Positions 117 through 19,518 of a stretch of 38,153 nucleotides of DNA are shown here, piece after piece; the stretch's first letter is position 1, and each line of letters opens with the position of its first letter. This stretch comes from Nitrospirota bacterium. GTDB taxonomy: Bacteria > Nitrospirota > Thermodesulfovibrionia > Thermodesulfovibrionales > Dissulfurispiraceae. Position numbers and translations under genes: made by a program. The notes below the pieces were generated by a model, which saw only the letters and a program-made list of their open reading frames with translations, did not search any database and had not been told where the DNA came from. The stretch is from positions 1-38,153 of the forward strand of contig SCQE01000045.1 in the NCBI GenBank assembly GCA_004321915.1. Reading direction: 5' to 3'.

Positions 117-1439
117 ATGACCAAGAAAGAATTCAGGATACTTGTTGTCGATGACGAGAAGTCGTTTCTGCTTCTGCTCACCAAAATACTTGAGAATGAA
201 GGGTATGAGGTAAAGGGCGCCGGCGATCCGAAGACCGCGCTCAAGGTGGTCGAAAACTTTATGCCGTATCTTGTGATAACCGATATGAAGATGCCTGAGA
301 TGGACGGTCTTGCGCTCATGGACGCCATAACGGGCAGAGGCATAGACACGGAGTTCATAATGATAACGGCATTTGCAACGGTTGAGGGGGCTGTTGACGT
401 AATAAAAAAAGGGGCTGTCGATTATATAACAAAACCGCTGAAAAACCCTGAACAATTAAGGTCGGTTGTGGCGAAGGTTTACGAAAGGCATAGGATATTG
501 AGCGGTTGCTCGGAAGATGAGCGCCTTAAAGGCCTTCCCCCTATCGGAATTATTTTTGCAGGGATGGAGAATGTTTTAAAAGAGGTAAGACATGTTGCCC
601 CGACCGGCGCGTCCGTTATGCTTTACGGCGAAACCGGCACAGGCAAAAGCCTGATAGCGAAAGTTATTCACAGTTTGAGCGGGAGAAAAGGGGCCTTTGT
701 GGATATAAACTGCGCGGCCATCCCTGAGAACCTTCTTGAATCAGAACTTTTCGGGTACGAAAAAGGCGCATTTACGGGCGCGGTTGCGTCCAAGAAGGGC
801 AGGTTCGAGATGGCTGACGAGGGCACCATATTTTTGGATGAGATTTCAGAGATGAGCCTTATGCTTCAGGCAAAGCTGCTTAAGGTGCTGCAGGAGAAAA
901 CATTTGAAAGACTCGGTTCCGTGGCCACCCTGAAAAGCAACGCCAGAGTCATTGCCGCGACAAACAGAAACCTTGCAGAGCTTGTGTCCGCGAAGAGATT
1001 TCGCGAAGATCTCTATTACAGGCTCAATGTTTTTCCTGTAAGCATACCGCCGCTCAGAGACAGAAAGGAACATATATCTTCTATAGCCGCTTTTATAATG
1101 CAGTCCGTGGCAAAACGGTTCGGCAAGGACGTGAGGGGCTTTGGCCCGGAATCGCTTGGTCGGCTTGTTGCTTACCAATGGCCGGGCAATATACGCGAGC
1201 TCGAAAACCACATAGAGCGCGCGGTAATTCTGGCAAAGGGGCAGGAGCTCTCTTTGCCAGAACTCAGCGGGACCGAGCAGGAAGAGAGCGCAGACACGGA
1301 CCTTAAAAGCGTCGAGAAGGTCGCCATCGAAAAGGCCCTGATAAAAACGGACGGGAACAGAAAAAAGGCGGCGGAACTGCTGGGGATATCGCTGCGGGCT
1401 TTACAGTATAAGATAAAAGATTACGGGATAAGCCGTTAG
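117..1439 (+). CDS. Sigma-54-dependent response regulator (NtrC/AtoC type)
   Basis: This 440-residue protein has the full NtrC-type layout. An N-terminal receiver domain (about 6-120) has acidic residues D12/D13 and phospho-acceptor D56. The AAA+ sigma-54 activator domain has Walker A GETGTGKS (171-178), the sigma-54 contact loop GAFTGA (217-222) and Walker B TIFLDE (237-242). A C-terminal Fis-type helix-turn-helix covers the last about 40 residues. It should activate sigma-54 promoters when phosphorylated. The frame extends upstream to a TTG at 72, but that lies inside intron domain VI, so I chose the ATG at 117, where family similarity begins. There is no Shine-Dalgarno before it, so the translated leader probably comes from the upstream exon after splicing. 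No partner kinase lies in the window. Confidence 0.93.
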   Translation: MTKKEFRILVVDDEKSFLLLLTKILENEGYEVKGAGDPKTALKVVENFMPYLVITDMKMPEMDGLALMDAITGRGIDTEFIMITAFATVEGAVDVIKKGAVDYITKPLKNPEQLRSVVAKVYERHRILSGCSEDERLKGLPPIGIIFAGMENVLKEVRHVAPTGASVMLYGETGTGKSLIAKVIHSLSGRKGAFVDINCAAIPENLLESELFGYEKGAFTGAVASKKGRFEMADEGTIFLDEISEMSLMLQAKLLKVLQEKTFERLGSVATLKSNARVIAATNRNLAELVSAKRFREDLYYRLNVFPVSIPPLRDRKEHISSIAAFIMQSVAKRFGKDVRGFGPESLGRLVAYQWPGNIRELENHIERAVILAKGQELSLPELSGTEQEESADTDLKSVEKVAIEKALIKTDGNRKKAAELLGISLRALQYKIKDYGISR

Positions 1440-1470
1440 ACTGAAAAATTTACTTTGTCAGAAACGCCTG

Positions 1471-2469
1471 TTACTTCAGCATATACAGCAACAGCAAATT
1501 GGCTACGCAGACTATAAATATCGCGATGGAATCCCAAGCGACAAACAATCTCTTTTTTTCTGCACGGTAGGTCAGTCCAATAATCGCAATGGTCGTCATC
1601 GCTATGGCCGATAATGCCGAAATTATGTGGTTGGGGCTTGCATGTGAGAGCAGAGGGCCTTTGAGAAAAAAAATATCGTCAAGCGCAAGGATAAAGATAT
1701 TGAAGATATTGCTTCCGAAGAGATTGCCGATCGCAAGATCAACAGCGCCCATTTTTACAGCGGCAATGGAAACAACCACTTCCGGCAAAGAGGTAGAGAC
1801 GGCAATAAAAATATTGCCGACAAAAGTCTGGCCCAATCCTGTGGCCTCTGCGATGCCTTCCCCGATCTTCGGGAGGAATATGGCTGCGATAACCACGATG
1901 AGGGCATTTGCCACATAGAGCAGCACGGCAGTCTTCATGCTGACATCTTTGTATCGTAATTCCTCCGCCATTTCTTTCAGGAATTCGGCTATCTTCCGTT
2001 TTTCATAGGAAAAGACCAATCTCATCGCGGTAAGATATATCAGCATAAACAGAAAGCTGTACGGACCTATCCAGCCTACGGGAGAAATGTTTTCCCTCAG
2101 AAACATACTGACGCATACAATGCTCAAAAGAAGAAGACCGAAGGCTGCTGAAAGCACATGCCCTTGGTGTGCCTTAGTGGATATCGGCGCGGGGCGATAC
2201 AGGGTGTCCAAAACTGCGAGGATTAGCATGTTGAAAACACAACTCCCGAGTACATCACCTACTGCGATATCAGGAACCCCTGCATATGTCACCGAACTTA
2301 TTCCGGTAACCAGCTCTGGCAGGGATGTTACCGATGCCATAAGTACAAGGCCTATCCATGCCCTTCCTAAGCCTGTTTTCTCGGCAATGATGTCGCCGTA
2401 TTTCGAGAGTTTCGTCCCCGAATAGACAATTACCGATGTGCAGATAAAAAATCCGAGCCAAAGCAGCAT
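1471..2469 (-). CDS. Calcium/sodium:proton antiporter (CaCA family, YrbG-like)
   Basis: This 332-residue integral membrane protein has the inverted duplication of the CaCA superfamily. Two alpha repeats, ASVTSLPELVT (about 46-56) and AVSTSLPEVVV in the second half, each carry the SLPE ion-binding core. Each is followed by a GDxxGSxxFN-type helix (GDVLGSCVFN and GNLFGSNIFN). About ten hydrophobic segments are visible, and the length is normal for YrbG-type proteins. It should exchange Ca2+ or another cation for Na+ or H+ across the inner membrane. It lies 79 bp downstream of the glucosylglycerate-type operon on the same strand and may be its last gene. It converges on the intact response regulator. 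Substrate cannot be told from sequence. Confidence 0.9.
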   Translation of the reverse strand: MLLWLGFFICTSVIVYSGTKLSKYGDIIAEKTGLGRAWIGLVLMASVTSLPELVTGISSVTYAGVPDIAVGDVLGSCVFNMLILAVLDTLYRPAPISTKAHQGHVLSAAFGLLLLSIVCVSMFLRENISPVGWIGPYSFLFMLIYLTAMRLVFSYEKRKIAEFLKEMAEELRYKDVSMKTAVLLYVANALIVVIAAIFLPKIGEGIAEATGLGQTFVGNIFIAVSTSLPEVVVSIAAVKMGAVDLAIGNLFGSNIFNIFILALDDIFFLKGPLLSHASPNHIISALSAIAMTTIAIIGLTYRAEKKRLFVAWDSIAIFIVCVANLLLLYMLK

Positions 2470-2548
2470 TATCCGTGATACCCCGACCGCATAAATTTAC
2501 CGAATTTGAAATATTCTATGACTTATTGTAGACGATTCACATGAAAAA

Positions 2549-3757
2549 TCACCTATTGTCCTCATCCACCGCTCTTTTCAGCATATCCAATATCCCGGGG
2601 ATCGCCGACGTCACTCTGTTCCAGTTGGGAATAAGCGCTGTACCCATCGGATTCTCGAAAAACACCTGCGCCGCCATACCGATGCCTTTTGTGAAGGCCT
2701 CAACAGCCTTTGCCTCTTCGTGCCGATCAAATGTCAGGCCGTTTATGGCGGCATCGGCCTCAAACTTCATTATGGTGTCTTCTGCCATTCTCAGATATGC
2801 CACCTGAAGGGTCTTGAAAAAACCATCGGAGAAGACGACCCCTTCAGATGCCAGAGTTCTGAATATCGATTTGCATATGTCGACGGTCATTTTCATGAGC
2901 CCTTTGCTCGCATCGTCGGCTGAAAGTATCTGGTGCTTATGTTCGTAAGTTTCCGCTATGTCCACCTGACAGATTCTCCGGGGAGAGTAATTTCTGTAAA
3001 CCTCCGCAAGGGCACCCACCTCAAGCCCCCAGTCCCAAGGTATCCTGTTGACCCTTGCCATGTCCGTTGTCATGCAGAACTCTCCTGCCAGAGGATACCG
3101 GAAACTGTCGAGAAACACCATGAAAGGGTGGTCTTCTGTAAGAGTTCTCAGGGACCTTCCCAGAGGGGTTATTAGAAGTCTTGTTACCCTTCCGTGCATC
3201 TTGTTTGTAACCCTGCTGTAAAACCCTTTGCAGAACACATAATCGATATTAGGGTTCACTACGGGGTAGCATAGTCGCGCCAGCATTTCCCTGCTGTATG
3301 TAACGATGTCGCAGTCATGAAGGGCTATTACATCACAAATCCCATCGGCAATGATATAACCGTAGGCCAGCCATGCGGACCGTCCTTTTCCGTCCTTGCC
3401 CGGGTTGAGGTCATTTCTGCCGAGTGTGTCGTATATTTCCTTTATTCTTTTCCCGTCGTTGTGAATCACTTTGACTTCATACGGCACAGCCGACATCAAG
3501 TTTTTCACTTTAATGAACTCTTTTTCCGAGGCCTTTGCGAGGACGAGGACGATTTTATTTATATACGTGACCTTTGCAAGCTCATCAATGATCTTCGGCA
3601 TAGCCTTCCCCTCAAACTCAGAATATAAAGCGGGAAGGACAAGGGCAACCGGTCTTGTCTTTGAATACCCGACAAGCTCAGACTCTATTCTTTCCAGGGA
3701 AGGTTTGCCGAGCCTGTGAAGGGTCGTAATAATACCTGTCTGATAAAAATCCGCCAT
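2549..3757 (-). CDS. gpgS: Glucosyl-3-phosphoglycerate synthase-like glycosyltransferase (GT81)
   Basis: This 402-residue cytosolic GT-A transferase resembles the archaeal/bacterial GpgS family, which moves glucose from an NDP-glucose onto 3-phosphoglycerate. Visible marks are the LVLPALYSEF nucleotide-binding start (about 39-48), the GKDGKGRSAW loop, the metal-binding HDCD motif, and the acceptor-side segments PLAGEFCMT and DWGLEVG. Length matches the family's long form of about 390-400 residues. An AGGAGG lies six bases before the ATG. It is downstream of an MscS-like gene in an operon with a GpgP/MPGP-type phosphatase, which supports the assignment. Sugar specificity (glucose or mannose) cannot be read from the sequence. 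Confidence 0.82.
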   Translation of the reverse strand: MADFYQTGIITTLHRLGKPSLERIESELVGYSKTRPVALVLPALYSEFEGKAMPKIIDELAKVTYINKIVLVLAKASEKEFIKVKNLMSAVPYEVKVIHNDGKRIKEIYDTLGRNDLNPGKDGKGRSAWLAYGYIIADGICDVIALHDCDIVTYSREMLARLCYPVVNPNIDYVFCKGFYSRVTNKMHGRVTRLLITPLGRSLRTLTEDHPFMVFLDSFRYPLAGEFCMTTDMARVNRIPWDWGLEVGALAEVYRNYSPRRICQVDIAETYEHKHQILSADDASKGLMKMTVDICKSIFRTLASEGVVFSDGFFKTLQVAYLRMAEDTIMKFEADAAINGLTFDRHEEAKAVEAFTKGIGMAAQVFFENPMGTALIPNWNRVTSAIPGILDMLKRAVDEDNR

Positions 3758-3795
3758 ATTGCCCTCCTATCTTGTGCAGCTAATTTATGAAGTTG

Positions 3796-4497
3796 CTATA
3801 TATGCTCAACATCGCCTTTATCATTTTTACCTGATCCCGCTTTTTTCCCTTCGATCATTTTTCTTGCAGTCTCTATTCCTGCCACACCGAAAGATATGGC
3901 AAGGGCTATGACGATCCCGCCAAAGATTATGGTGAATGCGGAAACTACTATGTTGGGAGCCACATTCAGCTGTTCCAGTGCCATGGCAAAGAACAGGACT
4001 GTAAGAAGAAGTCTGATGGCATTTGCAAGAAGTTTTGCATAACTGAGTCCGCTGTTGACGGCGGCAATAAGGGCGGCCCTGCTCAGGAAGCCGGATACCA
4101 TATATCCGATAAACAGAATCAATACAGCAGAGAAGGCATTAGGCAGGTAAAGGAAAAACTGGTTTACGAGGTTGTTAATGGCCTGAATGTCAAGGGCGCT
4201 GAATCCGACCATCATGGATACTGTCACTAAAAGCCAGAAGATGACGGCAACTGAGACATCCGAGGGCTTTGCCCACATGTCGCCCTTTCTCATCAGAGCG
4301 GTTATCCCCATCCTGTCGCACCAGCTATCGAACTTTATCGCCTTGAATAACTTAAGGAAGACGGTCTTTACCAGCCATGCCGCGCAGATGCCTATGATAA
4401 TGATGGTCAGCATAGCAAGCAAATTCGGGGAAAACCCCTTGAACTTGAGATAGACTTCATTGATCGGCTCAAGAATCAGATTCAAAAATCCTTCCAT
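3796..4497 (-). CDS. MscS-type TM-helix membrane protein
   Basis: This 233-residue membrane protein resembles the conserved TM-helix region of small-conductance mechanosensitive channel relatives. Four or five hydrophobic helices are visible: about 22-48, 85-105, 118-140, 155-178 and 185-210. The last is rich in Gly and Ala (FGGIVIALAISFGVAGIETAR), like the pore-lining helix of MscS. The C-terminal beta domain of a full MscS is missing; only a short Lys-rich tail follows. AGGAGG precedes the ATG. It sits between two glycosyltransferases of a compatible-solute operon, so a role in solute release or in sensing membrane tension is plausible. It may instead be a regulatory subunit rather than a channel. 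Confidence 0.75.
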   Translation of the reverse strand: MEGFLNLILEPINEVYLKFKGFSPNLLAMLTIIIIGICAAWLVKTVFLKLFKAIKFDSWCDRMGITALMRKGDMWAKPSDVSVAVIFWLLVTVSMMVGFSALDIQAINNLVNQFFLYLPNAFSAVLILFIGYMVSGFLSRAALIAAVNSGLSYAKLLANAIRLLLTVLFFAMALEQLNVAPNIVVSAFTIIFGGIVIALAISFGVAGIETARKMIEGKKAGSGKNDKGDVEHI

Positions 4498-4510
4498 GAC
4501 ATACCTCCTT

Positions 4511-5722
4511 TTATTTCCAGTTGCTTATCAGGTGCTCCTTGTTCGCTTCAAACTCCAGACATAGCTTTTCTATTTCCGCCTCCGCCCCTTCCTGCTCCAT
4601 ATCCGCCACCTCCATAACAAACGATGCGGTTTTAGCAAGGTAAAGAGGGATCAGGGATTTTATGAGATGCTGGGGAGGGAGCTTTTTCTTATGGTAAGCT
4701 ATGGCGTAATCGTATATGATCTTTGTCCAGAGCTTCAGGGGGAACCTGAATTCTTCGTCGGATACGGCTCCGAGGGTCTTAACCTCGCCAAAGTCACCGG
4801 CGCCTATGACTTCCAGCCATATCTTGTCCAAATTGTCAAGGCTGTCCCTGAATATACCCAGCATCCTTCCCACGTTTACCTTCACGTGTTCAAGCCCCAC
4901 ATGATACCTGAACCCGAATGTGGGAACATCTATAGAGCCTTTGACCTCCTTCCATTTGCCTGAATGTTTCTCAGTCAGGTCGAATAGAGAGCTGATGACT
5001 TGGACAAGCATTTCGCTCAGGTCAGAACTAGGGTCCTTGGGATCATGTATCTTCGCGCCTAGGAAGGCCTGGCATACCCTGAAATCGTTTGCTATAGCCT
5101 CAGTCGTCATCCATATATCTATCCCGAATCTGGCCACGTCTGTTCCCCAGACATCCTGTTTCAGGTAGAACTCTGCCATATTCCCGGAAAACCCGAACTC
5201 CCCGCCTATAGGCTGCCTTATCCTCTTTCCGTAAAAAGCCCTAGTCACGGGGTAGACTATGGAGTTTGTGATGGTCCCGTCAAACTTGTGCCTGTTATAA
5301 AGGGGTGCCACAAAATCTTTCCCTTCCTTGAGTACCGGTGACAGAAGAAGCTCTATCCATTCCGGGGTTATGCTCCTCAGATCAGAATCCACAATGGCGC
5401 ACGCACTCGCACCCATGTCAACAGCCATCTGGAATATAGTCCTTATGGCGCTCCCTTTACCGGGGACACCGTGATACGGAGTGGTTATCCTGTGTGCCAT
5501 GGATAAAGGGTGCTGTATCAAGAGCGCATTGTGATCGATGGTGGTGTTTTTTATTACTTCAGGGGTCCTGTCCTTCGAGCCTCCGTCCGAGTTGACAATG
5601 ACTGCCTTTTTGTCAGGGAAGTATTTCGCGAGTCCTGCATCTACAGCCTTAACAACATGGCCAATTGTCTTGGCGTTGTTATAGCTCGGGATGCCGACCA
5701 CTATATTAGCCGGTTCAACCAT
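4511..5722 (-). CDS. Second GT-A glycosyltransferase of the solute operon (GT2/GT81-like)
   Basis: This 403-residue protein has a GT-A fold start IVVGIPSYNN (7-16), an NSDGGSKDRTPE segment, a VPGKGSA loop, a metal-binding VDSD motif, and the QPIGGEFGFSG and FGIDIWMTTEA segments. The last three line up by eye with GpgS-type GT81 enzymes (PGKG, VDSD, QPLGGE). It differs from the other GT here in its N-terminus and has a longer helical C-terminal part. It overlaps neither neighbour but is only 4 bp after the DUF389 gene, so co-translation is likely. It may be a second GpgS-type enzyme, or it may add another sugar, as in mannosylglucosylglycerate synthesis. Exact donor and acceptor are unknown. 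Confidence 0.78.
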   Translation of the reverse strand: MVEPANIVVGIPSYNNAKTIGHVVKAVDAGLAKYFPDKKAVIVNSDGGSKDRTPEVIKNTTIDHNALLIQHPLSMAHRITTPYHGVPGKGSAIRTIFQMAVDMGASACAIVDSDLRSITPEWIELLLSPVLKEGKDFVAPLYNRHKFDGTITNSIVYPVTRAFYGKRIRQPIGGEFGFSGNMAEFYLKQDVWGTDVARFGIDIWMTTEAIANDFRVCQAFLGAKIHDPKDPSSDLSEMLVQVISSLFDLTEKHSGKWKEVKGSIDVPTFGFRYHVGLEHVKVNVGRMLGIFRDSLDNLDKIWLEVIGAGDFGEVKTLGAVSDEEFRFPLKLWTKIIYDYAIAYHKKKLPPQHLIKSLIPLYLAKTASFVMEVADMEQEGAEAEIEKLCLEFEANKEHLISNWK

Positions 5723-13510: not shown

Positions 13511-14311
13511 ATGTCTAACCGCCTGAAAAAATCAGTTTTATACGCTTGCCTCCTATTTATGACGATAGCTTCAGTCCATGCCGCCGACATCGGTTATCAA
13601 GGCACCCATATCCTGACCCACGGCGCGCTTGAGTCTCTGGCAAAGGCATTCGAGAGAAAATACGGCAAGCAGGTATTTGTGAAGGGCGGCGGATGCGCGG
13701 ACGGGATTGCGGTTGTGGTAAAGGGACAGCATGAAATGGGCGGCTTATGCTGCCCTCTGACTGAAGAGAAAGCGCGGAAATTTAATCTGATTCAGTATAA
13801 AGTCGCCGTTGATATAAAAGCGGTCATGCTGCATCCCAAAAACCGGTTGAGCAACCTTTCCCTGAAACAGGTTTCCGATATCCATAACGGCAGGCTTACG
13901 AACTGGAAGCAGGTCGGTGGTCCGGACAAGCCGATCGCCTTGGTTTTCAGGGATCACTGCCGCGATATGGCGGAACCTGTGCGGGAAGCGCTGGGAATAA
14001 AAGGCCCTGTCGCAAAAAAAGCGATTATTGTGAAAACAGATAAAGAGGTTGTCGAATACGTGGAGAAGTTTCCGGGCGCGATAGGCATCGCCCCGAGGGT
14101 ATTTGCGCAAGAGGCCAAGGTGAAGATAATAAGCGTCGATAAGATCATGCCGACCCCCGAGAACACTGAAAAAGGCCTGTATCCGCTGACAGGCGATTTG
14201 TATGTCATCACAAAAAGCGGGCCTTCGGGCTTGACGAAGACCTTCATTGAGTTTGTGCTGGACAAGGAAGGCCAAGCGATTATCAGGAAAAATTTTGCAG
14301 GGGCAAAATGA
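13511..14311 (+). CDS. PstS-like periplasmic substrate-binding protein
   Basis: This 266-residue protein has a signal peptide (about 7-24, cleavage near VHA-AD) and the PBP-like fold of phosphate/molybdate-type binding proteins. The order is a GTHILTHGAL first loop, a KGGGCADGI loop (about 56-64), a GGLCCPLT loop (about 77-84), an LSLKQVSDIHNGRLTNWKQVGG segment typical of PstS relatives, and an FRDHCRDM loop. Cysteines occupy positions near the expected ligand loops, which is unusual. The stop overlaps the kinase start by ATGA. It is therefore more likely the sensor input of that two-component system than an ABC importer component; no permease genes are near. Ligand unknown. Confidence 0.85.
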   Translation: MSNRLKKSVLYACLLFMTIASVHAADIGYQGTHILTHGALESLAKAFERKYGKQVFVKGGGCADGIAVVVKGQHEMGGLCCPLTEEKARKFNLIQYKVAVDIKAVMLHPKNRLSNLSLKQVSDIHNGRLTNWKQVGGPDKPIALVFRDHCRDMAEPVREALGIKGPVAKKAIIVKTDKEVVEYVEKFPGAIGIAPRVFAQEAKVKIISVDKIMPTPENTEKGLYPLTGDLYVITKSGPSGLTKTFIEFVLDKEGQAIIRKNFAGAK

Positions 14312-15789
14312 AGGGTTTATGGAATAGGCTTTCTATCAGATATAAGATAGTTTCGATTATTGTCCTGCCAATTCTGCTTATAACGATTACGACCCTTCCT
14401 GTTGTTTCTTATCTTATAAAGGACGCGCTTTTCAGGCGGCAGCAAGACCACCTTGAAAGTGTAAAAAACCTCGTCATAAAACTCTTTGAGGACTACCAGA
14501 GCAAGGTCACGAATTACACAAGGCTTTTCAGCAATGACAGGGAGATAAAGGACAGCCTGTTTTATCACACCTAACTGTCGGGTGAGCGGGAACATCCGCT
14601 GAGGGCGGTCAAGCGCTTGTATAAATCGTTTGATGTCAGTTCGATAGAGATAGGCGATGCGCGCGGCCGGGTCGTTGCAGTCGCCGAGAGCTCTGCTGTG
14701 TATGACGATGACAGGTCCGGAGACCCGCTGATTAAAAGCGCCCTCCAAGGCAAAGTGACATCAGGTTTTGTGCTTACCGAAAAAGGCTTTGTCATAAAGG
14801 CCGCAGCGCCTGTTTTGTATAACGAAAACCAGATAATCGGGACGATCACCTCCGGCATACTGCTTGATCAAGGTTTGCTGGCAAAGATCAGGCAGTTGAG
14901 CAACACCGACCTTGTTATTACCGATACTGCAGACCGGGTCGTATCGTCCACGCTGAAGCAAAACGACAGCTCGCTTCTGCAGGCAAATGACCATGCCCGA
15001 TTTGCTTCAGGCAAGCTCCTGATAAAGTTTCCTTTGCTTGATAAAGAAACCGGCGCTGTCGGCAACATCCTTATTGTTCAGGAAGACAAGCTGCCCGGGA
15101 TTATTACCAAGACATGTATGACTTTGCTGCTTCTTCTGCTCTCTATTTTTTCGGCATCTCTTTTTGTGCTTTTTTTAGCGCTCAAAAAATTGATGCAGCC
15201 TGTCGTAACCCTTCGTGAAGGAGCGGAGCGCATCGGGACCGGCGATTTTATGCACAGGATCGAGGTGACCTCAAAGGACGAGATAGGTGAACTTTCCGAA
15301 GGCTTCAATAGAATGGCTGCGAACCTTGAAAAATTGCACAGCATGGAGGAAAAGCTTTTCCAGTCCGAGCGGCTTGCGGCGGTCGGTAAATTTGCGGCAG
15401 GCATTGCGCATGAGATAAATAATCCCATAGGCAATGTCATCGGCATTGCCAAGCTTATGCTGAAAAATACGAAGGACAAGGCCGCGCGGGACGACTTGGA
15501 ATCCATCATCAGGGATTCCGGCAGGTGCGCAAACATAATCAAGGATCTGCTTGTATATTCGCGCCAGTCTCCGCCGTTGAAAGAAAAAACGTCCATCGCT
15601 GTTCTGATCGACGATGCCGTCAAGGCTGTAAAAAAACTTTCCGACGCAAAAGGGATAGAGGTCAGTTACGGCATAGTCCAGAACCACGGCGGAGAGATAA
15701 TCGTGCAGAGCAGGAAAGGACAGGGAAGCACTTTCAGCGTCAGGCTTCCTGTGGGGGAAGGAATAAGACATGCAGAGACTCAGGATTAG
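14308..15789 (+). pseudogene. Broken sensor histidine kinase (Cache-HAMP-HisKA, ATPase core lost)
   Basis: One continuous frame encodes TM1 (about 14-34), a periplasmic Cache-like domain, TM2 (about 270-292), HAMP, and HisKA with the phospho-acceptor GIAHEINNPIGN. Two lesions are visible. A TAA at 14572-14574 interrupts the sensor domain; coding resumes in the same frame at once (LSGEREHP), so a GAA-to-TAA change is likely. Near 15661 the frame jumps from the HisKA linker (DAKGIEV) directly to SYGIVQNHGGEI, the G2-side end of the ATPase. The N, F and G1 boxes, about 75 residues, are missing. It starts by ATGA overlap with the binding protein. Autophosphorylation should be impossible even with stop read-through. 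Confidence 0.85.
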
Positions 15790-15799
15790 AAATAAATAA
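15770..15799 (+). pseudogene. Relic of a response-regulator start
   Basis: An ATG at 15770, with AAGGAA seven bases upstream, overlaps the end of the kinase frame. It opens MQRLRI before running into a stop at 15797-15799. The intact regulator downstream begins MDRRLRILAIDD, so this looks like the first codons of the original, kinase-overlapping regulator, cut off after the sixth codon. It is only nine codons long; the reading rests on the similarity and the position. Confidence 0.4.
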
Positions 15800-15864
15800 G
15801 TTTTTTCAGTAAAATGAAATATATAATACAGTGTTAATCGAAAGACTTTTAACGGAGGCGTATT

Positions 15865-16122
15865 ATGCAAACCAAAACAATGTATGAGGAGAAAATATTA
15901 AGAGAATTGAGGGATCTTCCTGAAGTTGTGCAGGAAAAATTATCGAATATAATGCATATTCTGACAAAAGAGTTCATGTTTTTTGAGGGAGATGAGAAAC
16001 GCGTAACTGATGAATTCCTTTCAGTTTGCGGGACGTGGGAAGACAATAAAAGCGCAGAGGAACAAATACAGACTATTTATTCAAGCAGACGATCTGTTTC
16101 AAGAACGGAGAAGGTATTTTGA
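15865..16122 (+). CDS. VapB-type antitoxin
   Basis: The product has 85 residues: a helical N-terminal half with an ELRDLPEVVQEKL segment, as in many small antitoxins, and an acidic and Ser/Arg-rich C-terminal tail that would wrap the toxin. No clear AbrB or RHH fold can be named. GGAGG lies eight bases before the ATG. A TATAAT at 15822-15827 could be the -10 box, with a weak -35. The stop overlaps the toxin start (TTGA), the usual TA arrangement. The pair is more AT-rich than the flanking two-component genes, as expected for an inserted module. Confidence 0.75.
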   Translation: MQTKTMYEEKILRELRDLPEVVQEKLSNIMHILTKEFMFFEGDEKRVTDEFLSVCGTWEDNKSAEEQIQTIYSSRRSVSRTEKVF

Positions 16123-16526
16123 AATACCTGCTGGACACAAACACCTGTGTTTATCTGCTTAACGGCAATCCTGTATTAAAGAAAAAAGCAAAGAAAGTAG
16201 GTGTTTATTCACTCGCCCTTGCCAACTGTGTCCTTGCAGAACTATATTTTGGCGCATACAATTCCACCAAAGTTCAGGCAAATCTGAAAAGGATAGAGCT
16301 TTTCAAACAGAATCTGACAATTTTCTCCGACAGTGAAGATTCAGCCGCCTTGTTCGGCAGGATAAAGACTTCCTTGAGATCAAAAGGAAGGATTATTGAA
16401 GATTTTGATATCCTCATTGCCTCAATTGCAATTGTCAATAGCTGCGTTCTCGTCACAAATAATACCGAGCATTTTCAACGCATAGAAGGGTTAAAGATAG
16501 AAAACTGGCTGTCCGGCAAAAAATAA
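16119..16526 (+). CDS. VapC-type PIN-domain toxin
   Basis: This 135-residue PIN-domain ribonuclease starts at a TTG overlapping the antitoxin stop. Visible catalytic acids are D6 in LLDTNTCVYL, the Glu in VLAELYFGAY (about 41-50), and the Asp in IEDFDILIAS (about 93-102). The TNNTEHFQRI motif (about 114-123) is standard for VapC. Length is typical. VapC toxins cut tRNA or rRNA when freed from the antitoxin. The module sits between the broken kinase and the intact regulator, so its insertion is probably linked to the damage there. Confidence 0.9.
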   Translation: MKYLLDTNTCVYLLNGNPVLKKKAKKVGVYSLALANCVLAELYFGAYNSTKVQANLKRIELFKQNLTIFSDSEDSAALFGRIKTSLRSKGRIIEDFDILIASIAIVNSCVLVTNNTEHFQRIEGLKIENWLSGKK

Positions 16527-16745
16527 ATAAGCCCGGATTTAAATAAGCAGATACATGTCGCGTATATTTCACCCGCCTTGAAAACGGCGGGCTGTGCGAT
16601 CCATACGGGCTCGCTGAACAGCATTATTTTGGCGATGGCCAGATTTTCCGAGCGCAGCCGAAAAATCGTTGCCAAAGATCCGACCGCCCCGACGAAGGTC
16701 ATGAGTATTTTGATAGAGGTGTCGTTAGGAGAAGATGATGGATAG
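16527..16745 (+). pseudogene. Orphan coding tail upstream of the second regulator
   Basis: From the VapC stop to a TAG at 16743-16745 the same frame stays open for 72 codons with no ATG at its beginning. The part from about 16548 has codon use like the neighbouring genes and reads as a plausible protein end (TAGCAIHTGSLN ... VMSILIEVSLGEDDG). Its stop overlaps the ATGATG of the next regulator, as in coupled genes. It is best read as the 3' remnant of a gene once coupled to that regulator. I cannot name the family. Confidence 0.5.
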
Positions 16746-18108
16746 ACGGCTTAGAATACTGGCTATAGACGACGAAGATACGGTGTTGCGCATAATCAGG
16801 CGGTCGCTTGAACCTGAAGATTGCTCTGTCGAGACCTTCAGCAAGGCCTCTGATGCGATAACCCGGCTAAAAAACGGCGACCCTGTGGACATTGTCATAA
16901 CAGACCTCATGCTGCCGGACGCTGACGGCTTCAAAATAATTGAAGAGGCCCGCGCTATTGACGGGAACATGCCGGTAATATTGATTACGGCGTATTCGTC
17001 CATCGAGACGGCGGTAAAGGCCATCAAGTCAGGGGCGTATGATTTTATTCCCAAGCCGTTCGACCCTGAACACATAGCTATCGTAGTTAAAAGGGCCGCG
17101 GAAACAAGAAAACTAAAGCTCGAAAATATAGGCTTGAAAAGGCAGTTGGAGTTCATCCCCGGTTCCGGTGGAATAATCGGCTCCAGCACTGCCATGAGTC
17201 AGGTGTTCGGCATGATAGAAAAGGTAAAAGATACGGACGGCACGGTCCTTTTGACAGGTGAGAGCGGGGTAGGGAAAGAGCTTGTCGCCCGGGCGATCCA
17301 TTACGGCAGCAAGAGGACGGATAAGCCCTTCATCGCGATCAATTGCGGAGCATTGCCCGACGAACTCCTCGAATCCGAACTGTTCGGTTATGAAAAAGGG
17401 GCGTTTACAGGAGCGGTCAATAAAAAAACAGGCCTGTTTGAAGCGGCGAATGAAGGCACGATATTCCTCGATGAGGTGAGCAGCATAAGCCCGATGATGC
17501 AGGTCAAGCTCCTCAGGTTCCTGCAAGAGAGGACTTTTATGAGGCTCGGCGGCAATGAGACGATCAGTGTTGACGCTCGGGTTATTGCCGCAACCAATGA
17601 ATATCTCAGAGAGGCCGTGGACAAAGGCGCGTTCAGAAAAGATCTTTATTACCGGTTGAATGTCCTGCCGATAGATATCCCGCCGCTGCGTGAAAGAAGC
17701 GAGGACATCCCGCTTCTGGTCCGGCACTTCACCAAAAAATTTTCCCTAAGGATGAACAAGCCGGTCGTCGGCGTAGACCCGGTCGCGGAGGACTTGCTCA
17801 AAGGATACAGGTGGGAAGGCAATGTGAGGGAACTCGAAAATGTCATAGAGAGGGCGGTTACGATAACGGATAATGGCGCCATCGGCATGGACGACCTGTC
17901 TGATGAGATTAAAACCGTTAACGCACCATCCGACTTGGAAGCAACAGCGCCCCCTGCAACCCTGACTCTTTCCGACCTTGAACGCCTTCATATCGCGAAT
18001 GTCTTAAAGTCGGTCAACGGCAATAAGAGCAAGGCTGCGAGAATGCGCGGCATTGATTACAGCACGCTTCGCAGGAAGCTCAATTCAATGGATATCCCCA
18101 TAGAGTAA
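16738..18108 (+). CDS. Sigma-54-dependent response regulator (second copy)
   Basis: The protein has 456 residues. The receiver domain (about 3-120) carries D11/D12 and phospho-acceptor D56. The AAA+ domain has Walker A GESGVGKE (174-181), GAFTGA (221-226) and Walker B TIFLDE (241-246). The Fis-type HTH is at the end (GNKSKAARMRGIDYSTLRRKL). Two ATGs stand side by side; AGGAG at 16727-16731 is better spaced (six bases) for the second, 16738, than for 16735. All key residues are present, so the activator is intact although the kinase upstream is broken. A -24/-12 promoter 90 bp downstream of its stop is the obvious target. Confidence 0.93.
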   Translation: MDRRLRILAIDDEDTVLRIIRRSLEPEDCSVETFSKASDAITRLKNGDPVDIVITDLMLPDADGFKIIEEARAIDGNMPVILITAYSSIETAVKAIKSGAYDFIPKPFDPEHIAIVVKRAAETRKLKLENIGLKRQLEFIPGSGGIIGSSTAMSQVFGMIEKVKDTDGTVLLTGESGVGKELVARAIHYGSKRTDKPFIAINCGALPDELLESELFGYEKGAFTGAVNKKTGLFEAANEGTIFLDEVSSISPMMQVKLLRFLQERTFMRLGGNETISVDARVIAATNEYLREAVDKGAFRKDLYYRLNVLPIDIPPLRERSEDIPLLVRHFTKKFSLRMNKPVVGVDPVAEDLLKGYRWEGNVRELENVIERAVTITDNGAIGMDDLSDEIKTVNAPSDLEATAPPATLTLSDLERLHIANVLKSVNGNKSKAARMRGIDYSTLRRKLNSMDIPIE

Positions 18109-18198
18109 AATGCGCTGATTAGTGTATTTTGCCTTAGCATTTTGCGCTTCCTGATTTTTCCATTGCCGCTTTATGCTTGTCTGTTCCCGGTTTATCGA

Positions 18199-18214
18199 TG
18201 GCATGATATGTGCA
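18199..18214 (+). promoter_or_regulatory. Sigma-54 (-24/-12) promoter of the beta-propeller gene
   Basis: The sequence TGGCAT-GATAT-GTGCA matches the sigma-54 consensus TGGCAC-N5-TTGCA at 14 of 16 positions counting free spacer. The invariant GG (18200-18201) and GC (18212-18213) have exact spacing. Start of transcription is expected near 18225, giving a leader of about 28 nt with AGGAGG before the ATG. It lies directly behind a sigma-54 activator gene. Confidence 0.8.
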
Positions 18215-18252
18215 ATCTCCGAAGGTAAATATAAAACCACAGGAGGTAATGC

Positions 18253-19518
18253 ATGAAGAAGCTTTTAAAGTATTGTCTTATCGCTTTAGTTGTCATCGGC
18301 ATGAGTACCGCTGTTTATGCCGCAGTCGCAAAATGGATTTTCGTGCCCAATGCCGCATCAAAGACGCTTTCCTTTGTCGACCCTCAAAAAGATATGGTCA
18401 TCGGCCACTGCGAAACCGGGCCGACCGGATGGCTGGCCTGTCTTACGCCTGACCTGAAGAAGATCTATGTCGGCGAAAACGGCGGTGACTCGGTAACTGT
18501 AATTGATGCCATTACACACAAAACCCTGAAGCACATCAAGACCGGCAAGAATGTCAAACATCCGCTCGTTACACCCGACGGCAAATATGTGCTCATCAAT
18601 CATACCGGTGAGGTTAAGGCGGTACTCTTTGACGCCAAGACGGACAAGGAACTGAAGACCTTTGCTGTTGACCACCAGAATAAGGCACAGAAAGGCCCGT
18701 TGATGATGCACTCGGCCTTTACATGGGACAGCAAATACGCCTTTGTCCAAAACTATGCGGACAAGAAATCATACGTCTTGAAAATCCCGTCCCTTGAAGT
18801 CGCCGCAACGATTGACGGGGACAGCCCCGCGCATTATTTTATCCCCACGCCTGATAACAAGCAGGTCTGGATAGTGTATGAAGGCAACGATGCGGCAAAA
18901 ATCAAGCCGTCTGTTTCGATTATGGATATGGCGACATTCAAGGAAGTAAAAAAAATCGAAATACCGACGGCCGAAGGAGAGGCCATAGAGGGGCATCACG
19001 GCATATTCACACTTGACGGGAAATATTTTTATTACTGCAATCGCGGCCCCGGCCCGAAGTTCGGCGGCAGCACGGTGGCAGTTATAGATGTGGCTCAGCA
19101 GAAGGTTGTCAGGACGATCAAGGCTGCAAACGGTGTCGGACACCCATATCTCACGCCTGACGGCAACTATGTCGTGCTTACGCCTTACGGCAACTATGTC
19201 GTGCTTACGCCTTACGGCAACTATGTCGTGCTTACGCCTTACGGTTCAAATATTATCACGATTGTTGACGCCAAGACAGGGCTTAAGCTTAAGGACCTGC
19301 CTGTCGGCAACGGCAACCATGTAGGCCATATAGTCTTCAGCGCGGACAGCAAAAAAGCTTATGCAACCAATGCTTCCGACGGCGCGCTGTATGTCATAGA
19401 CATGCAGAAACGGGAAGTGGTAAAAGGAATTCCGACTGGCGACAAGGCTGCACAGGTAATCAATACTTATACAAATCTTTTTGAAGTGCCGGGAGTATAT
19501 AAATTGCATAGTCACTAA
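18253..19518 (+). CDS. Secreted YVTN-type beta-propeller protein
   Basis: This 421-residue protein has a signal peptide (about 5-23, cleavage near VYA-AV) followed by about seven YVTN/cytochrome d1-like blades. Blade marks recur: WIFVPNAASKTLSFVD, KKIYVGENGGDSVTVID, KYVLINHT, STVAVIDVAQQKVVRTI, YATNASDGALYVID. No heme-binding CxxCH is present. AGGAGG precedes the ATG. A 27-bp triplication inserts 18 residues into one blade (about 303-330). The gene is probably the sigma-54-driven output of the adjacent sensory genes and ends at a strong terminator. Such propellers often bind metals or proteins in the periplasm; function here is unknown. Confidence 0.87.
   Translation: MKKLLKYCLIALVVIGMSTAVYAAVAKWIFVPNAASKTLSFVDPQKDMVIGHCETGPTGWLACLTPDLKKIYVGENGGDSVTVIDAITHKTLKHIKTGKNVKHPLVTPDGKYVLINHTGEVKAVLFDAKTDKELKTFAVDHQNKAQKGPLMMHSAFTWDSKYAFVQNYADKKSYVLKIPSLEVAATIDGDSPAHYFIPTPDNKQVWIVYEGNDAAKIKPSVSIMDMATFKEVKKIEIPTAEGEAIEGHHGIFTLDGKYFYYCNRGPGPKFGGSTVAVIDVAQQKVVRTIKAANGVGHPYLTPDGNYVVLTPYGNYVVLTPYGNYVVLTPYGSNIITIVDAKTGLKLKDLPVGNGNHVGHIVFSADSKKAYATNASDGALYVIDMQKREVVKGIPTGDKAAQVINTYTNLFEVPGVYKLHSH
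19161..19241 (+). repeat. 27-bp tandem repeat, three perfect copies
   Basis: Three identical 27-bp units (19161-19187, 19188-19214, 19215-19241) lie in frame in the beta-propeller gene, each adding nine residues of the pattern GNYVVLTPY. A single copy would fit the PDG-strand-turn of a normal blade. The perfect identity points to recent expansion by replication slippage, or to an assembly error. Confidence 0.95.

Follow-up and report, generated by a model that had tools for sequence, protein, structure and literature searches.

Comparison of the sensory island in the window (the whole 38,153-nucleotide stretch of DNA analysed here) with its relatives shows a secreted beta-propeller gene lying behind a binding protein, a histidine kinase and an NtrC-type regulator. 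That the propeller is the output of this set is well supported by sequence for the family, because the promoter before it is conserved and because outputs are swapped under the same two DNA elements. We think it probable that the three proteins form a sigma-54 switch, with a PstS-like sensor for a thiosulfate-like ligand and a propeller as output. A sequence-only reading had proposed a ligand-response system with the propeller as effector; the propeller is indeed the likely output in the family, but the kinase in the window is broken, and for that reason the island in this genome is not supported as a working system. The relevant features are as follows.

13511-14311, plus strand: PstS-like periplasmic binding protein, the sensor (PF12849, 2e-24; TIGR02136, 5e-31, below cut-off)
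14308-15789, plus strand: sensor histidine kinase, broken by a nonsense codon and an ATPase-domain deletion relative to its relatives
15865-16526, plus strand: VapB-like/VapC pair (PF01850 and VapC models)
16735-18108, plus strand: intact NtrC-type sigma-54 activator with receiver domain (GAFTGA, Walker A, HTH_8)
18122-18134, plus strand: candidate upstream activator site 1, GTGTATTTTGCCT, position and sequence conserved in relatives
18135-18147, plus strand: candidate upstream activator site 2, TAGCATTTTGCGC, position and sequence conserved in relatives
18199-18214, plus strand: sigma-54 promoter (-24/-12), TGGCATGATATGTGCA, identified by motif match, conservation in relatives, shuffles and locus controls
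18241-18246, plus strand: ribosome-binding site AGGAGG
18253-19518, plus strand: secreted beta-propeller A, 421 aa (403 aa in G042), with a hydrophobic N-terminal signal
19150-19244, plus strand: 27-bp tandem expansion within the propeller gene, three in-frame units adding 18 residues, none in relatives

The promoter lies where the sequence-only reading had placed a sigma-54 site with invariant GG and GC at exact spacing, between the sigma-54 activator and the secreted propeller. In TGGCATGATATGTGCA the GG and GC are separated by exactly 10 nt, there are two mismatches to TGGCAC-N5-TTGCW, and 54 bp separate the element from the propeller ATG. Among dinucleotide shuffles of the 147-bp region between regulator and propeller, 0.2% attained its weighted score. 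The predicted transcription start at ~18225, followed by AGGAGG and by the ATG at 18253, gives a geometry consistent with a sigma-54 promoter; rpoN is present in the host genome (a 3.63-Mb assembly of 145 contigs), in which TGGCAY-N6-TGCW has 44 matches compared with 10 for the reversed control.

A search for the same four-gene set elsewhere had been suggested as a check, and binding protein, kinase, regulator and propeller A were found together in G042, G097, G105, L065 and L067, the last a locus labelled deltaproteobacterium. The promoter precedes propeller A in each, reading TGGCATGATAGGTGCT in G042, TGGCATGATAGGTGCA in G097 and L065, TGGCATGATTAGTGCA in G105 and TGGCACGATAGGTGCA in L067. 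Its spacing and most of its bases are retained at every locus found with propeller A behind this regulator; the intergenic DNA around it aligns poorly among loci, and the distance from promoter to ATG ranges from 54 to 117 bp. At these five loci the best sigma-54 score is 19.5, compared with 13.5-16 upstream of eight propeller copies that lack the regulator (seven from other genomes and the second copy of this one), showing that the promoter tracks the regulator and not the propeller. For a control, we scored 220 bp downstream of each of 22 other NtrC-type genes for both a sigma-54 site and an upstream pair; 16 of these regions contained a sigma-54-like site. Since such sites are frequent behind NtrC-type genes here, we reject the argument that the promoter alone proves the link between regulator and propeller. 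A second AGGAGGTG-like element, located ~50-60 bp ahead of the true ribosome-binding site in L052, L053, L054 and L065 and missing in the window, suggests a leader between promoter and propeller start at those loci.

In these comparisons the distinctive element of the system is the upstream site rather than the sigma-54 promoter. Immediately after the stop codon of the regulator gene come two copies of a motif with the consensus TGGCATTTTGCCA; they precede the -24 element by roughly 60-150 bp and are spaced 13 bp apart in the group to which the window belongs and about 32 bp apart in other loci. A search for enhancer repeats 80-200 bp upstream had also been suggested as a check, and in the window a pair of candidate sites at 18122-18147 is present ~84-97 bp before the predicted start, 34 bp nearer the promoter than in G042. 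The pair is weak in the window alone (shuffle P 0.03, with matches of equal quality no commoner across the window than chance) and convincing only through conservation. Upstream pairs scored higher at 17 family loci than downstream of the 22 control genes (Mann-Whitney P 2e-7), and promoter and pair occurred together in 17/17 family loci compared with 3/22 controls, counts that are not independent because the sequences are related. Some of the loci tested had already contributed to the consensus; the three sox loci were scored after it had been fixed, and a wider search for held-out loci returned mostly contigs already in the set. At L076 and L077 the target operon is convergent, on the opposite strand and ~2-3 kb away, and two good TGGCATTTTGCCA copies are retained there with the promoter. 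A TRGYATTTTGCC search for a wider regulon across genomes gave few matches, only modestly above the reversed control. Neither a consistent sigma-54 site nor a consistent upstream site was found ahead of the binding-protein gene, and autoregulation through a site at that position was rejected; no site pair precedes propeller B in the regulator-less copy of G037.

The gene behind the sensor set is not the same at every locus. It is propeller A at six loci, including the window; it is propeller B, under the same promoter and upstream sites, in G006, G022 and L072, and also in the convergent arrangement at L076 and L077. Propeller B is a protein of ~350 aa that has an invariant CxxCH close to its C-terminus and no curated family match above cut-off, and the genes downstream of it encode an FtsX-type permease in G006 and a permease together with a LolD-type ATPase in G022 and L072. 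Examples are:

L055, 7622-8662: propeller B
L057, 5153-6196, minus strand: propeller B
L072, L076, L077 and L064: further copies of propeller B

At L073 (9992-10834), L074 (11368-12216) and L075, and by inspection in G076, the output is a second PstS-like binding protein; those of L073 and L074 retain GCG and MCCP cysteine motifs. At L079, L082 and L085 it is soxX/soxA, with SoxX, SoxA or SoxZ above curated cut-offs at each, and the first gene at L082:10920 matched no Sox model. This sox-linked branch is more distant, with 33-40% identity in the binding protein; at L087 a SoxX gene adjoins the regulator, with a Sox match again above cut-off, and the stretch examined there showed no clear promoter. 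In G037, one cluster without the regulator contains both propellers A and B, which suggests that the two take part in one process.

The sensor model (pLDDT 92.7) has PstS, 4q8r, as its best structural match, with a Z of 30, and the protein shares with PstS both this fold and family PF12849. In contrast to PstS, it scores below the PstS family cut-off, is encoded with a kinase and not with pstCAB, and carries four cysteines (C62, C80, C81 and C150), invariant in 23 aligned sensors, which coincide with or adjoin the phosphate-binding loops in the alignment to 4q8r (GGGCADG vs GSSAG). Its profile matches include PBP_like_2 and PstS models and no phosphonate-binding model. Several observations bear on the ligand. 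In G006 a regulator-less copy of propeller A lies with a TusA-like gene and with a gene closest to that of the thiosulfate transporter TsuA, below the model cut-off. Most of the named relatives of the island come from Nitrospirae assemblies, among them two with the label Thermodesulfovibrio or Thermodesulfovibrionales, which makes the host of the window probably a member of that group. The hosts are largely sulfur-cycle bacteria. Taken with the sox neighbours and the cysteines, these make thiosulfate or a related reduced sulfur species the most likely ligand, as a best guess; a search of the literature for links between the propeller and thiosulfate, or between the binding protein and sox, found nothing direct.

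We propose that the periplasmic binding protein, through its four cysteines, would bind a small thiophilic ligand and would signal to the adjacent Cache/HAMP histidine kinase. The kinase would then phosphorylate the NtrC-type regulator, which is predicted to bind the pair of TGGCATTTTGCCA-like sites that closely follow its gene and to switch on the sigma-54 promoter of the adjoining transcription unit; in the family of the window this unit encodes a secreted propeller. We extend this model tentatively, regarding the extension as possible rather than probable, to sigma-54 systems with four-cysteine sensors in Nitrospirota, Desulfobulbales and sulfur-oxidising Proteobacteria, which may all detect thiosulfate or a relative of it and differ in an output that is swapped between sox and two families of secreted propellers. 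If this is true, the propellers would act in periplasmic sulfur metabolism as enzymes or carriers not yet characterised.

Alternative explanations concern the promoter, its activator and the ligand. Sigma-54 matches with three or fewer mismatches are as frequent across the window as in shuffled sequence, and TGGCATGATATGTGCA might have been taken for one of them; its retention at all island loci, despite diverging flanks, rules out a chance origin as far as we can judge, and we consider this reading very improbable. A genuine sigma-54 promoter might instead be activated by another NtrC-type regulator of this genome, in which such paralogues are numerous and, as the controls show, often followed by sigma-54 sites. 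The upstream sites, however, co-occur with this regulator family and accompany the target even when it is on the opposite strand (L076 and L077), and the promoter is absent from propeller copies without the regulator; we therefore give this possibility little credence. It is also possible that the switch is as proposed and that its ligand is a metal or metalloid, such as As(III) or Cu(I), held on the four invariant cysteines, with the propeller as a metal-handling protein. AioX, which belongs to the PhnD (phosphonate-binding) fold family, is the arsenite sensor of a system laid out in the same way, and its sensing site contains a specific cysteine, C106 (PMC5908839). An ArsS-type radical SAM gene is found in the operon of the regulator-less propeller copy of G006, a PCuAC-like gene was seen by inspection between propellers A and B in G037, and several histidines are invariant in propeller A. 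Against these stand the sox genes under the same elements at three loci, the TsuA-like and TusA-like neighbours and the sulfur-cycle hosts, and we regard a metal ligand as unlikely, though less so than the other two alternatives.

A thiosulfate-like signal thus remains our preferred reading for the family, and the present state of the window copy is a separate matter. In the kinase gene an in-frame TAA (14572-14574) replaces a glutamate of the FYHTEL motif that is kept in 6/6 intact relatives aligned. The ATPase domain has lost about 83 residues, including its N, G1 and F boxes, through an in-frame deletion near 15658-15664, so that a complete HATPase domain (N, G1, F, G2) is absent and the HATPase_c profile is matched only over positions 76-109. 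The VapBC pair separates kinase and regulator, genes that overlap or abut in relatives, where the pair is absent; an open frame is found in the ~200 bp behind it (16527-16734). The regulator itself has the features of a sigma-54 activator, an AAA+ domain with GAFTGA, a receiver domain and an HTH. In the remaining kinase codons dN/dS is no higher than between intact relatives, and the lesions therefore look recent, although any single lesion of the window copy could be an assembly error. With the kinase dead, the promoter in this genome probably stays silent, fires at a low constitutive level or is driven by way of a different kinase.

Whether the island is a relic, with a promoter intact in sequence yet unresponsive and with a second propeller copy, on contig C81, doing the work, seems to us evenly balanced; the question concerns this copy in its present state and is compatible with the main explanation. 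The kinase lesions, the VapBC insertion, the tandem expansion in the propeller gene, the displacement of the upstream sites relative to G042 and the existence of the second copy at 84-87% identity all point toward a relic. Decay is also seen elsewhere: G013 (L115) keeps a lone binding-protein gene, L089 has fragments of binding protein and kinase, and the G097 propeller (L053, 8864-9968) is interrupted by a stop and a frame change at about residues 167-201, with promoter and sensor genes intact. Loss of the system is therefore recurrent. The window copy, without a functional kinase, also shows that a well-defined promoter can persist after the system using it has been lost. Opposing a relic, the regulator could be phosphorylated by a different kinase, and relative to relatives both regulator (dN/dS about 0.07-0.08) and propeller (about 0.02) show strong purifying constraint, though with dS near saturation a recent relaxation would be invisible in these values.

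The sequence-only reading knew of no described system of this kind, and here it requires correction, since two sigma-54 systems of this type, AioXSR (PMC6011840) and TspS/TspR (PMC6335251), have been described. In AioX-AioS-AioR, a periplasmic binding protein, a kinase and an NtrC-type regulator are encoded together, and the regulator binds upstream of the RpoN promoter of the adjacent operon, TGGCACAACGATTGCA for aioBA (PMC6011840, PMC5908839). Relatives of the island share the plan of AioXSR, as also of ArxXSR, including a sigma-54 promoter and an upstream site ahead of the output gene; the window copy departs from it by its broken kinase. In contrast to AioXSR, the sensor is PstS-like with four invariant cysteines and not of the PhnD family, and the output, instead of the arsenite oxidase aioBA, is a propeller, a second binding protein or sox genes. 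The system works like AioXSR, yet by its sensor it is not AioXSR. The available part of the description of TspS/TspR from Acidithiobacillus caldus presents a sigma-54 system beside sox, with thiosulfate as proposed signal and a site TGTCCCAAATGGGACA, and in that part no binding protein or propeller output is mentioned (PMC6335251). Adjacency to sox together with a sigma-54 promoter is lacking in the window and its close relatives and is found in the distant loci L079, L082 and L085, and TGTCCCAAATGGGACA did not occur with three or fewer mismatches in the window, L079 or L085. The sox-linked branch may overlap the system described by Li et al. 2017. Three features are new: the PstS-like sensor with its four cysteines, outputs that can be exchanged, and the putative connection between two uncharacterised propellers and thiosulfate-like compounds. 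According to one account (PMC11582611), the sensing of external sulfur by regulators is poorly understood, and a conserved sensor with a defined DNA site at sox and at two uncharacterised propeller families would offer a direct handle on it.

Propeller A can be placed by structure and by profile. The G042 model (pLDDT 88) is closest to the d1 propeller of cytochrome cd1 (Z 37, rmsd 2.9, 353 residues aligned to 1dy7), with a Z of 35 to NirF; it has a d1-type propeller fold, and sharing that fold does not show heme d1 binding. Identity to cytochrome cd1, NirN and NirF is ~12-18%, and, unlike cytochrome cd1, propeller A has no cytochrome c domain. Six histidines (H153, H194, H248, H249, H297 and H341, G042 numbering) are invariant even at 30% identity and would suit a metal or cofactor site. 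Propeller A is also similar by profile to L-NosZ, the clade III nitrous-oxide reductase, but the CuA-like C-terminal part of L-NosZ is unmatched and the score of 77 bits against NF052460, compared with a cut-off of 700 bits and with 748-751 bits for two L-NosZ from the same phylum, rules out this identity.

The second propeller copy of this genome is preceded by rhodanese genes, which fits the proposed tie to sulfur. It is flanked in L004 (G000:C81:5000-24900) by two islands, at 1108-4996 and 13718-18224, each consisting of a binding protein that looks PhnD-like, a kinase and an NtrC-type regulator, and a sigma-54 site is located behind the second of these regulators (C81:23448-23463). At the contig start, positions 26-121 of the window (plus strand) match a group II intron (RF00029, 43 bits) and overlap the start of a response-regulator-like frame at 72-1439.
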